This document shows positions 408 to 64,000 of a stretch of DNA of 64,000 bases, one piece after another. Position 1 is the first letter of the stretch. The number at the start of each line of letters is the position of its first letter. Source of the stretch: Clostridia bacterium (GTDB lineage: Bacteria > Bacillota > Clostridia > Oscillospirales > Acutalibacteraceae); the NCBI GenBank assembly GCA_017461235.1, contig JAFTYU010000013.1:1-64000 (forward strand), in the 5' to 3' direction. The notes below the pieces were generated by a model that was given only the letters and a program-made list of their open reading frames with translations, was not told the origin of the DNA and searched no databases. The translations under genes were made by a program, and so were the position numbers.

Positions 408-557
408 TGGTCGAGATGACGGGATTTGATGGGCTCTGCCCATCATTCGCTACGCGAACACCCGATTATATTCGCCTTCGGCGAGGGGGTTCAAATCCCT
501 GTTTGTTCCACAAATTAAAAAATAAAGATGTGTACGATTCGTACACACCTTCATTTT
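408..557. mobile_element. 150-bp miniature element inserted in the 3' end of tRNA-Pro
   Basis: Bases 408-429 are an exact 22-bp copy of the tRNA-Pro 3' end (558-579: CCA tail, acceptor 3' strand and T-arm up to the T-loop). Between the two copies lie three small palindromes: GATGGGC-TCT-GCCCATC (428-444), TTCGC-TAC-GCGAA (446-458) and TCGCC-TTC-GGCGA (472-484). These are followed by an inverted copy of the T-arm (TTCAAATCCC, 490-499) and a terminator hairpin (516-557) next to the intact tRNA. The same palindromes in the same order, with the same 22-bp tail logic, occur beside the tmRNA at 63501-63648. There is no coding capacity. Short ORFs that read through this stretch are artefacts of tRNA-like sequence. 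The mobile-element call is inference from the direct repeats and the second copy. Confidence 0.6.
516..557 (-). terminator. Terminator directly behind tRNA-Pro
   Basis: On the minus strand TGTGTACG and CGTACACA pair across the loop AAT (529-547), followed by a T-rich run (516-527). It begins one base past the CCA end of the tRNA and lies inside the 150-bp inserted unit. Confidence 0.75.
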
Positions 558-634
<77 letters not shown>

Positions 635-685: not shown

Positions 686-833
686 CGAACGTAGCGCTCT
701 TCCTGTTGCAATATAGTCGTTTCGCTCGTTATTCACTTCGCGATACTCCTTATTGCGCCACTCCTTTTTTCTCGCTTCATCCGCCACCGGCGGCGCTCGA
801 AAACGTCCCCAAATTGAGCCACATCTCGATATT
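686..833 (-). pseudogene. Split, truncated tRNA-Pro copy
   Basis: Bases 809-833 are identical to 615-639, the 5' end and D-arm of tRNA-Pro plus five upstream bases. Bases 686-700 are identical to 599-613, the anticodon-side segment. In the intact gene these segments are only one base apart; here 108 bp (701-808) lie between them, and the 3' half beyond the anticodon stem is missing. The inserted stretch contains the palindrome CCGCC-GGT-GGCGG (780s) and no reading frame of note. Since it lies between the apparent promoter (874-902) and the intact gene, it would be transcribed as leader RNA and then removed when the tRNA is processed. Confidence 0.7.
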
Positions 834-26076: not shown

Positions 26077-26343
26077 ATGCCCTGACGCGAGCAGATATGC
26101 GTTGATGCGGGAGGTGGCTGCCCACTGAGGCAGGGAATTTCCGCGGAGTATGTCCGATTTAAAACCGGGCGATTAAATACCGATAGCAAACCGTCTGCCG
26201 TCCTTAACTCCGGCTTCGGTGTTGTTTCGGAGCGTGAGTATATCCCGGAATTGACATTCCGGTTTTTAAACGGAAGGGGCGATAAGCCCGGGGCAGTTGA
26301 AGAAACTTGCGCAGCCCGCCAAAATTATTAGGAGGCGTTAAAA
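26048..26343 (+). promoter_or_regulatory. Structured 5' leader of the S10 operon
   Basis: This 296-base stretch has no open frame, is more GC-rich than its surroundings and holds several possible stems: CCCTG/CAGGG enclosing ACGC/GCGT, CTCCG/CGGAG, a perfect hairpin with T-tract (26245-26267), and GGGC-GATAA-GCCC near 26277. Ribosomal protein leaders in bacteria often bind one product of the operon to stop excess synthesis (the Escherichia coli S10 leader binds L4). The sequence here does not match a leader class I can name. An autogenous control role is inference. Confidence 0.6.
26245..26267 (+). terminator. Attenuator-like hairpin inside the rpsJ leader
   Basis: CCGGAAT (26245-26251) and ATTCCGG (26256-26262) pair perfectly around TGAC and are followed by TTTTT. 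It sits 76 bases before the rpsJ start codon, so it would act as a regulated terminator. Confidence 0.65.
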
Positions 26344-62925: not shown

Positions 62926-63305
62926 TTATTTTGTGTTTTGTTTTGCGGTATTTATAGAGGCAATTAAAATACGGCGAATTGTACCGCATTGATTATACAA
63001 CTCAGTGGCAGTTTCTCTGTTAAGAATTTCGGATTTTACAAATAATTCAATCCAATATTCTGTTTTATAACATTCTTTTAATGCAATCTGTAATTTAGAA
63101 ACAAAGTCAGCTTTTCGTGAGCATAGTTTGCTTCACGAATATTTGCGCCTATAGATGTCGCACTTCGCTCTAACTGATTAACAAGAGAGTAATGTCCTTT
63201 TATTGTTTCGCACAATTTAATGATTTTTAGTGCAAAATCAGTTGAAAGTTCCCTGAGTTTAGATTCAGCTATAAATTTACCATCTCTGTCAAAGAATCTG
63301 ATAAC
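62926..63305 (-). pseudogene. Frameshifted four-helix-bundle (S23/IVS-type) gene
   Basis: On the minus strand a frame opens near 63305 with FFDRDGKFIAESKLRELSTD and continues FALKIIKLCETIKGHYSLVN then QLERSATSIGANIREANYAH. The reading then shifts near 63113: the next frame continues KADFVSKLQIALKECYKTEY then WIELFVKSEILNRETATELY and ends at TAA 62926. Together this is the small four-helix-bundle family first found in 23S rRNA intervening sequences. A stop codon lies just upstream of the conserved start with no start codon between, so the gene has lost its start as well as its frame. It lies between ybaK and a palindrome island. Confidence 0.8.
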
Positions 63306-63326
63306 ATAAAATTATAAATAGTCAAA

Positions 63327-63463
63327 GTGAAATATTGCTACGCAATATGAAATAATCCTGCGGATTGTGAAATAAAATTTGCCCACATTCGCGTAAGCGA
63401 ATATTTCACATTTACGAAGCAAATATTTCACAACGAAGTTATTTCACTTGCCCGAATGGGCAA
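63327..63463. repeat. Composite palindrome island (GTGAAATA/TATTTCAC)
   Basis: Three direct (R)TGAAATA motifs (63327, 63347, 63367) are followed by three inverted TATTTCAC motifs (63402, 63424, 63440). Between and behind them lie small stem-loops: ATATTGC-TAC-GCAATAT, AATCC-TGC-GGATT, ATTCGC-GTAA-GCGAAT and TTGCCC-GAAT-GGGCAA. No coding frame is present. The layout is that of a bacterial interspersed palindromic repeat. Confidence 0.7.
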
Positions 63464-63471
63464 TTTTCGTT

Positions 63472-63499
63472 GAAAAAAGCACCCTAACGGGTGTTTTTT
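63472..63499. terminator. Terminator beyond the displaced tmRNA tail
   Basis: GCACCC-TAAC-GGGTGT with A/T tracts on both sides (AAAAAA, TTTTTT). On the minus strand it follows the displaced tmRNA 3' tail (63501-63522) by one base, so it is probably the original ssrA terminator. Confidence 0.75.
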
Positions 63500-63500
63500 C

Positions 63501-63648
63501 TGGTGGAGATGATGGGGGTCGATGGGCTCTGCCCATCGTTCGCTTTGCGAACACCCGATTGTGTTCGGCTTCGCCGAGTGGGGTTCGACTCCTACATACA
63601 TAATCTTAACAAAAAATGATAGTCCAACCTAAAGCTGAACTATCATTT
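63501..63648. mobile_element. 148-bp miniature element inserted in the 3' end of tmRNA
   Basis: Bases 63501-63522 copy the tmRNA 3' end (63649-63670; CCA, acceptor strand and T-arm) with one mismatch. Three palindromes follow in the same order as at 428-484: GATGGGC-TCT-GCCCATC (63521-63537), TTCGC-TTT-GCGAA (63539-63551) and TCGGC-TTC-GCCGA (63565-63577). Then come an inverted T-arm (TTCGACTCC, 63584-63592) and a terminator hairpin next to the intact tmRNA. The size differs by only two bases from the tRNA-Pro copy. There is no coding capacity. The best reading is a second insertion of the same tiny element type. Confidence 0.6.
63611..63648 (-). terminator. Terminator directly behind tmRNA
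   Basis: AATGATAGT and ACTATCATT pair over 9 bp with one further pair, followed on the minus strand by six T. It starts one base past the CCA end and lies inside the 148-bp inserted unit. Confidence 0.8.
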
Positions 63649-64000
63649 TGGTGGAGATGATGGGAGTCGAACCCATGTCCGAAAATCTATTCCCGAAACT
63701 TTCTACGAGCGTAGTTTATCTTTTGAAATTCCCTTGGATGAACGCCGATAAACAGGCTTTTATCTTCGGTAGCCCTTTAGACCGTGACAAAGTACAAGGC
63801 TCTCCTTTGTTCACGTGCACCGCTAAATGACGCTCTTATCCGGGTCGCGGTATTCCCGGTAAGAACGGCAGCTGACTTAAGCAGCTGCTAAAACTGTTTT
63901 ATTATTGTCAGTTATTTTTAAAATTGCGATTTTTAAAGCGGTACCGCACCTCTGCTCGCTTATAACGGTTCAAAATCCCCGTCGAAATCCTTTCATCCCC
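63649..64000 (-). ncRNA. ssrA: Transfer-messenger RNA (tmRNA)
   Basis: tmRNA rescues stalled ribosomes and tags the incomplete protein for degradation. On the minus strand the 5' end GGGGATGAAAGGATTTCGAC (from 64000) is the standard start, and the 3' end GACTCCCATCATCTCCACCA (to 63649) has an encoded CCA. GGGGATG pairs with CATCTCC to form the acceptor stem with one G-U pair. The tag frame appears to begin at GCA (63937) and reads AILKITDNNKTVLAAA, then TAA. The end LAAA is a usual type of degradation signal. The gene is complete at 352 bases, its first base being the last base of the window. Its 3' flank carries the 148-bp element. Confidence 0.95.

Follow-up and report, generated by a model that had tools for sequence, protein, structure and literature searches.

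The window analysed here is the whole 64,000-nucleotide stretch at the start of contig JAFTYU010000013.1 from Clostridia bacterium (assembly GCA_017461235.1). At its right end, a tmRNA gene is followed, downstream in the gene's own sense, by a 148-bp unit (window 63501-63648), and the locus reads in the order gene, terminator, inverted host T-arm, three-hairpin core, host T-loop-to-CCA copy and terminator:

63649-64000, minus strand: host gene, tmRNA with the tag DNNKTVLAAA (ARAGORN; RF00023, 176.7 bits)
63594-63648, minus strand: 55-bp spacer with a terminator-like hairpin and T6 (by eye from the sequence)
63581-63592, minus strand: inverted copy of the tmRNA T-arm (GGAGTCGAACCC), 55 bp past the gene, 1 mismatch in 13
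63565-63577, minus strand: core hairpin H1 (TCGGCGAAGCCGA)
63538-63552, minus strand: core hairpin H2 (GTTCGCAAAGCGAAC)
63521-63537, minus strand: core hairpin H3 (GATGGGCAGAGCCCATC)
63501-63522, minus strand: copy of the tmRNA 3' end from T-loop to CCA, 1 mismatch in 22
63474-63500, minus strand: second terminator, listed by the terminator scan

The 22-base copy of the tmRNA tail that had been predicted 148 bp from the real one, with one mismatch, was confirmed (63501-63522 against 63649-63670), and the three palindromes, the inverted T-arm and the second terminator were all found in the predicted order. A search of the window for the tmRNA tail with up to 3 mismatches returned just these 2 places; 100 dinucleotide shuffles returned no match. 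The first terminator, in the spacer, is absent from the terminator-scan list and is a long hairpin with T6 read by eye. As the copied part begins in the T-loop, 22 nt from the tmRNA 3' end, the inverted T-arm and the tail copy form a closing stem enclosing the three hairpins.

A second host lies at the other end of the window:

558-634, minus strand: tRNA-Pro(cgg) (ARAGORN)
487-499, minus strand: inverted copy of the tRNA-Pro T-arm, 58 bp past the gene, 0 mismatches in 13
430-486, minus strand: three-hairpin core
408-429, minus strand: tRNA-Pro tail copy from T-loop to CCA, 0 mismatches in 19

Over query positions 12-103, this unit (408-499) and the tmRNA unit are 84% identical in alignment. 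The two genes do carry the same kind of element, as had been proposed, with the same parts. Upstream of tRNA-Pro(cgg) there is also a 5'-side counterpart (window 686-828, minus strand), in which another structured core is flanked by tRNA-Pro copies, nt 1-20 at 809-828 and nt 22-36 at 686-700. The same 5'-side arrangement recurs at tRNA-Pro(cgg) of another genome (locus L046, genome G015), while in genome G008 Pro(tgg) is preceded by three tandem copies of nt 1-19 with a period of 168 (L261), and one such copy stands before Leu(cag) at locus L055.

When the tmRNA unit was used as a BLAST query against its own genome (G000), 15 further matches were found, giving 16 places in total. A scan that did not depend on the core was then applied, in which an own tail copy was defined as 19 nt with at most 3 mismatches within 600 bp downstream of the gene. 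Such a copy was found behind 14 of the 31 tRNA and tmRNA genes examined in this genome (a 31st tRNA match without a locus was left out), and in 13 of the 14 carriers an inverted T-arm follows the gene at a distance of 51-65 bp. The fourteenth, Pro(tgg), has a different core type and its inverted match overlaps the tail copy itself. Other tRNA genes therefore show the arrangement, with related cores, contrary to the refuting condition set in the original prediction, which confirmed that the element family is real and larger than the original prediction stated. Within the same genus, own tail copies were found at 14 of 41 genes in G008, 12 of them with both signals (tail and inverted arm), and at only 1 of 35 genes in G010, where both signals were seen at none. 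In two genomes of other genera, both signals were found at 0 of 34 (G028) and 0 of 37 genes (G056), and the one own-tail match, seen in G028, comes from an adjacent Ser tRNA. No tail copy was detected within 600 bp upstream of any gene scanned in G000, G008 and G010, and no unit follows the genes that have another tRNA within 90 bp behind them (0 of 6 in G000, 0 of 8 in G008).

A model of the common core (R1) was built from 12 copies of the window's own genome; 99.0% of its cells are paired, and 31 cells were changed on both sides compared with 8.4 after shuffling. R1 matched 17 of the 21 other genomes of the genus (18 with the own genome), with up to 26 core matches per genome (G008), and 0 of 58 genomes outside the genus (27 of the same family and 31 of the same order) under strict filters that may lose weak matches. 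The database records with cores are uncultured Oscillospiraceae or Clostridia of the series SIG and RGIG, many of which are, judging by the record titles, gut samples of water deer, sheep, goat, cattle, yak or buffalo. Other cores occur in the same layout, including a second type at Leu and Arg, a longer type at Glu and Tyr, and further types at Gln(ctg), Pro(tgg) and Asn. Read by eye, the Asn unit has a direct copy that begins in the anticodon arm, and this arm is also what its inverted part repeats. Behind one tRNA-Asn, itself behind a 5S gene (L250, G008), a second core begins after a copy that starts at the anticodon stem, and at two loci (L134 and L139) a 23-25 nt anticodon-arm copy lies 28 bp before tRNA-Ser(gga), near the presumed promoter. 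An origin of the cores from an RNA family was rejected, as Rfam searches with E up to 5 at seven loci gave no family for them. A viral origin was also rejected, with 0 exact matches in IMG/VR to a single exact core pattern.

The fetched loci contain 137 core hits, with a same-strand host within 70 bp in 75, at 71-700 bp in 26, and no host in 36; five weak R1 hits (G020:C21, G002:C17, G002:C10, G016:C74 and G015:C265) were left out of these loci. Host matching was determined for the 75 hits with a host at most 70 bp upstream, of which 74 were usable and one was cut by a contig end. The tail agreed with that of its own host at 19 of 19 positions in 59 of the 74 units and at 18 or more in 68, compared with an average of 11.1 for the tails of other hosts, and the own host was the top-ranked match in 69. 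This bears out the prediction that each element carries the tail of its own host gene. The inverted T-arm agreed at 12 or 13 of 13 positions in 71 of the 74 units, compared with 9.6 for other hosts; the inverted ends of the units thus vary with the host. The six tail exceptions include three cut cores without a tail (L177, L185 and L189), a false hit (L096), a gene cut by a contig end that leaves nothing to compare (L171), and L119, at Arg(acg) of G006, where the tail copy differs from the host at 3 of 19 positions. Among the copies that reach the tail, 70 of 102 begin at -22 or -21, in agreement with the proposal that the target is the tRNA arm rather than one fixed sequence.

A hairpin with a T-run was found in the spacer of 58 of the 75 units (shuffled mean 3.35) and after the unit in 47 of 61. 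In the window's own genome the tail copies lie at offsets of 125-139 plus 19 nt with the common core and 164-169 with the longer cores. At Lys and Ser(gct), a direct repeat of the host tail together with its flank, 70-85 bp long, was seen by eye. For the units without a called tRNA, 15 of the 36 were listed; 11 of these are preceded by a partial host 3' end or by another unit, and a better reading of them is that they end islands integrated in a tRNA, or are tandem or contig-end copies. The remaining 4 of the 15 listed (L114:3481, L182, L014 and L187) have neither.

Units are gained and lost as exact pieces. Arrays grow by steps of about 150 bp, and several arrays in G008 end in an inverted T-arm and a cut core without a tail. 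At Thr(cgt), G002 has a unit beside a cargo gene, at its near end, that G018 lacks; to the right of this unit 196 of 201 aligned columns are identical, and the G002 contig ends within the host tail and so lacks the tRNA proper. The gained unit shares its spacer with the unit that stands at the opposite end of the adjoining cargo, and it may therefore be a local copy, not a new arrival. The tmRNA gene of G017 is an empty site, in which the sequence after the gene corresponds to that beyond the second tail of G000 and G013 (130 of 154 and 136 of 152 positions identical, respectively, compared with 87 of 176 and 88 of 169 on the other side), and a relative of the second terminator lies directly 3' of the tmRNA. 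Insertion, the term used in the original prediction, is seen here as the exact presence or absence of a unit and not as active hopping.

Where hosts of the same name differ between genomes, the tail copy agreed with its own host in 494 comparisons, with the other host in 6 and with neither in 4, these counts being ordered pairs in which Met mixes two tRNAs and events are not independent. The same comparison for the inverted arm, counted in the same way, gave 277, 40 and 41, so the arm is less strict than the tail. The inverted arm of the G000 tmRNA unit agrees with the gene where the tail copy has mutated, and at one Leu(tag) site in G001 the tail followed the gene and the inverted arm did not, which indicates that the two parts are matched to the gene separately.

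The nearest neighbour of a core, among 62 units, belonged to the same host gene at a fraction of 0.306 (0.067 shuffled) and to the same genome at 0.054 (0.083 shuffled). Cores thus group with their host gene rather than with their genome, so most units appear to be old and passed on vertically, and movement between hosts is suggested solely by the cores that hosts share. A burst within a genome was unsupported by these nearest neighbours. Pairing in the closing stem, H1 and H3 is nearly all Watson-Crick, with G-T no more frequent than A-C. In these stems there were 9 G-T and 8 A-C among 1768 cells (94 distinct rows from the best 103 hits), compared with 127 G-T and 10 A-C among 1284 cells in the acceptor and T-stems of the hosts at fixed offsets (107 genes). 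H2 is the exception, having 40 G-T and 3 A-C cells, with 36 of the G-T at the outermost pair. Taken together, the gain and loss of exact pieces, the tails that follow their hosts and the lack of a G-T excess in most stems suggest that upkeep of the units looks to be at the DNA level. A minicircle, considered from the period of 147-151 bp, was dropped because units with longer cores are 183-188 bp.

tRNA genes are targets of phages, integrative and conjugative elements (ICEs) and islands, which cross over in the T-loop or anticodon loop and leave a tail copy at their far end. The units resemble these elements in having a boundary in the T-loop or anticodon loop and a tail copy at the far end, but they are 148 bp and gene-free, with a host-specific tail and an inverted arm at many tRNAs. 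Miniature inverted-repeat transposable elements (MITEs), REP/REPIN-type palindromic repeats and Rickettsia palindromic elements are, like the units, short non-coding dispersed hairpin repeats without an enzyme of their own; however, they have fixed ends and are not known to copy a host-gene tail. With integron cassettes and their attC sites the units share a folded hairpin site, tandem units and defence cargo nearby, but no integron integrase is linked to them and their ends copy a tRNA arm.

The closest likeness is to the tRNA-linked repeats (TLRs) of E. coli. Egan and Landy were the first to describe them, in 1978. There are 22 of them at ten loci in tRNA or rRNA operons; a locus has one to five, placed immediately after the gene, and the last 18-19 bp of each are identical to the 3' end of the gene that precedes it (PMC8144298). 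They include the 178-bp repeats of tyrT (RtT RNA, RF00391) and the repeats rrA, rrB and rrF; at rrnB, copies are 150 bp apart and the repeat lies between the terminators T1 and T2 after the 5S gene (PMC8144298). The same paper, from 2021, describes TLRs as thus far without a known function (PMC8144298). In Salmonella, rtT RNA is listed as a 175-bp variable-number repeat (PMC2658671), which agrees with tandem gain and loss. The statement in the original prediction that no described element behaves in this way was therefore mistaken, since the TLRs, as this paper describes them and as read in the K-12 sequence, have the same defining layout (PMC8144298).

Using the last 18 nt of each annotated gene, 13 own-tail copies were found behind 48 genes examined in K-12, in 11 stretches. 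The 5S genes rrfB and rrfF each have one copy behind them (18 of 18 bases, with starts 168 bp apart by sliding start), and at rrfD the best-matching repeat turned out to be the following 5S gene. Common core motifs were seen by eye in the Arg, Lys and Tyr units. An inverted T-arm was present at 12 of 13 positions behind lysV and lysQ, and tyrV (3 copies) and argV have closing arms of 10 and 8 nt, longer than those of any other host. The host-matched inverted arm is clear in only 6 of the 13 K-12 copies; the other 7 are short and fit other hosts equally or better, the arm of another host tying in 5 of 13 and winning in 4 of 13. A 10-nt inverted-arm test was passed by 4 of the 13 copies (chance 0.06 each) and was replaced by these two other measures.

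The clostridial units agree with TLRs in their position behind a stable-RNA gene, the 18-19 nt identical to the host tail at their 3' end, and a spacing of about 150-178 bp, near 150 bp between terminators as in rrn. Tandem copies (tyrV), a similar hairpin core on different hosts (arg and lys), the inverted T-arm (lysV and lysQ) and the long closing arm (tyrV and argV) are also shared. They therefore show the layout by which TLRs are defined, though the RtT core is not shared: the RF00391 model matched 0 of 22 genomes, with E. coli the sole match among 14 controls. Unlike the E. coli TLRs, the clostridial units have an unrelated core and a near-universal inverted T-arm, include a tmRNA host, occur at nearly half of the tRNA and tmRNA genes of the window's own genome and mostly lie past a terminator. 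New relative to E. coli are the clostridial genus, the tmRNA host, one core on many hosts and the near-universal inverted T-arm, together with the concerted evolution and the defence genes between units. No published description of clostridial TLRs was found in literature searches that did not name TLRs.

Genes lie between units at three loci. At Leu(gag) (L341, 802-5726; G000 C26), an AIPR gene, a type II restriction endonuclease and methyltransferase (REase_II and MTase_II) and AbiD lie between two unit copies as a 5.8-kb cargo whose right end falls exactly at the TTCAAG of the T-loop. At Leu(taa) (L346, 2367-4902; G008 C15), DitA and DitB lie within 9.8 kb between two units, with a TnpV gene near the right end of the interval, and at Thr(cgt) the cargo is a 1.3-kb DUF4241 gene. 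No integrase was seen in these three cargos, including among the ORFs of the Leu(gag) cargo. As tRNA genes are ordinary hot spots for island integration, the defence cargo between units is a lead only. Next to some units, two serine recombinases and no tyrosine recombinase were found. One is a full gene with Resolvase, Recombinase and zinc-ribbon domains and a relaxase gene nearby (L344, 4140-5609; G006 C47), and the other is an open frame with a zinc-ribbon domain near a contig end, a serine-recombinase fragment (L345, 10542-11297; G000 C7). In both, the last codons run through a host-tail remnant and a displaced unit follows directly, the one at G006 C47 having a tmRNA-type tail. The two recombinases resemble integrases of islands aimed at these same tails, and not enzymes that make the units.

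We consider it probable, though well short of certain, that the units are tRNA-linked repeats, a genus-wide family of the TLR type which is gained by duplication and kept in step with its hosts by DNA-level correction. The unit consists of a non-coding hairpin core, with the inverted host T-arm on its left and the T-loop-to-CCA copy on its right, about 56 bp behind the gene. The layout, host matching, tandem arrays, exact presence or absence of one unit and match to the E. coli TLR layout are observed. Gain could occur by a duplication at the T-loop in which about 78 bp of the host tail and its flank are repeated around a core taken from another unit, after which unequal exchange between tail copies could change the number of units. 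The tail may be kept in step by conversion between direct tail copies, and the inverted arms and hairpins by hairpin or template-switch correction. The unit would then be largely selfish or neutral DNA, located beyond the terminator where it is harmless to the tRNA, and any RNA product could be a by-product of terminator read-through. Counting against this explanation are the grouping of cores by host gene and not by genome, the possibly local origin of the unit gained at Thr(cgt), the near absence of tail copies in G010 (1 of 35), the G-T excess in H2, the 3 of 19 differences at L119 and the weak inverted arms in K-12 (clear in 6 of 13, another host better in 4 of 13). The loops and single-stranded parts of the cores are conserved, which drift plus palindrome correction leaves unexplained.

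This conservation is one point in favour of a functional small RNA, in which a read-through transcript would be cut like a tRNA 3' end to give a CCA-ended regulatory RNA. The K-12 annotation of rttR ends at the tail-copy end, and the E. coli transcripts of rrA, rrB and rrF, made by read-through, interact with Hfq and CsrA (PMC8144298), so that, by analogy, an RNA role for the clostridial units is possible. Four units gave RNA fold z-scores of -3.3 to -5.5; the DNA folds of three units were significant too (-3.1 to -5.2), and folding therefore does not decide between RNA and DNA. The closing stem, H1 and H3 are without the G-U excess typical of host tRNA stems, a hairpin and T-run stand between gene and unit in 58 of 75, and core types vary among hosts and have no Rfam family at the seven loci. 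A starvation phenotype once ascribed to the tyrT unit has been retracted (PMC8144298). On balance, a small-RNA function is a doubtful reading of the units. Still less can be said for att- or attC-like recombination sites, used by a recombinase at tRNA loops and gathering cargo like an integron without an integrase, which we regard as unlikely. The sharp start of the copies in the T-loop, the units whose copy begins at the anticodon arm (Asn) or covers the 5' part as far as the D-loop, the cargo without a visible integrase (type II restriction-modification with AbiD, DitA with DitB, and DUF4241) and the two displaced units directly after serine-recombinase genes would all fit such sites. However, both recombinases look like island integrases, one of them within an element with a relaxase, the cargo may stem from decayed islands at ordinary integration hot spots, and a site-specific recombinase alone cannot supply a host-matched tail and inverted arm.

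A form of hairpin-DNA recombination at the T, anticodon and D loops, in which a folded single strand, closed by a host-copying arm, would insert behind nearly any tRNA or tmRNA gene, refit its ends to the new host and carry defence genes between units, is in our estimate rather improbable. It is highly improbable that the extra T-arm is a decoy, a harmless target for phage and island integrases that shields the gene; a whole inverted T-arm does adjoin the gene, and displaced half-tRNAs and islands do occur at unit loci, but the island ends examined (L011, L120, L122, L013 and L164) lie in the direct tail and not in the inverted arm. Units at contig ends in several metagenome assemblies (L002 and L016), as tandem copies would give, could raise the suspicion of an assembly or chance artefact, but the chance of this is negligible, with cores in 18 genomes of the genus, cores in records of two series (SIG and RGIG) and 0 chance matches.

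On the preferred reading of the units as TLR-type repeats, elements of a gut bacterium resemble the little-understood TLRs of E. coli, with one core spread over many hosts and each copy in step with its host. Although the E. coli TLRs were discovered nearly fifty years ago, a distant genus now offers a comparative system. As this genus has up to 26 core matches per genome, several cores, empty and filled sites, and ends specific to each host, the origin, spread and upkeep of such repeats become testable, and the rarity of G-U in most stems argues for an answer at the DNA level. A caution also follows, that a tail copy downstream of a tRNA gene need not be the scar of an integrated phage.

Two structured RNA families were also matched in the window. 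Directly beyond the tmRNA unit there are two facing Gut-1 RNA matches (RF01706; 52 and 57 bits) at 63304-63378 on the plus strand and 63398-63472 on the minus strand, and related palindromes occur after the tmRNA both in the empty site of G017 and in the filled site of G013, and also after the Gln(ttg) unit. An S10-Clostridia ribosomal protein leader (RF03136) lies at 26094-26172.
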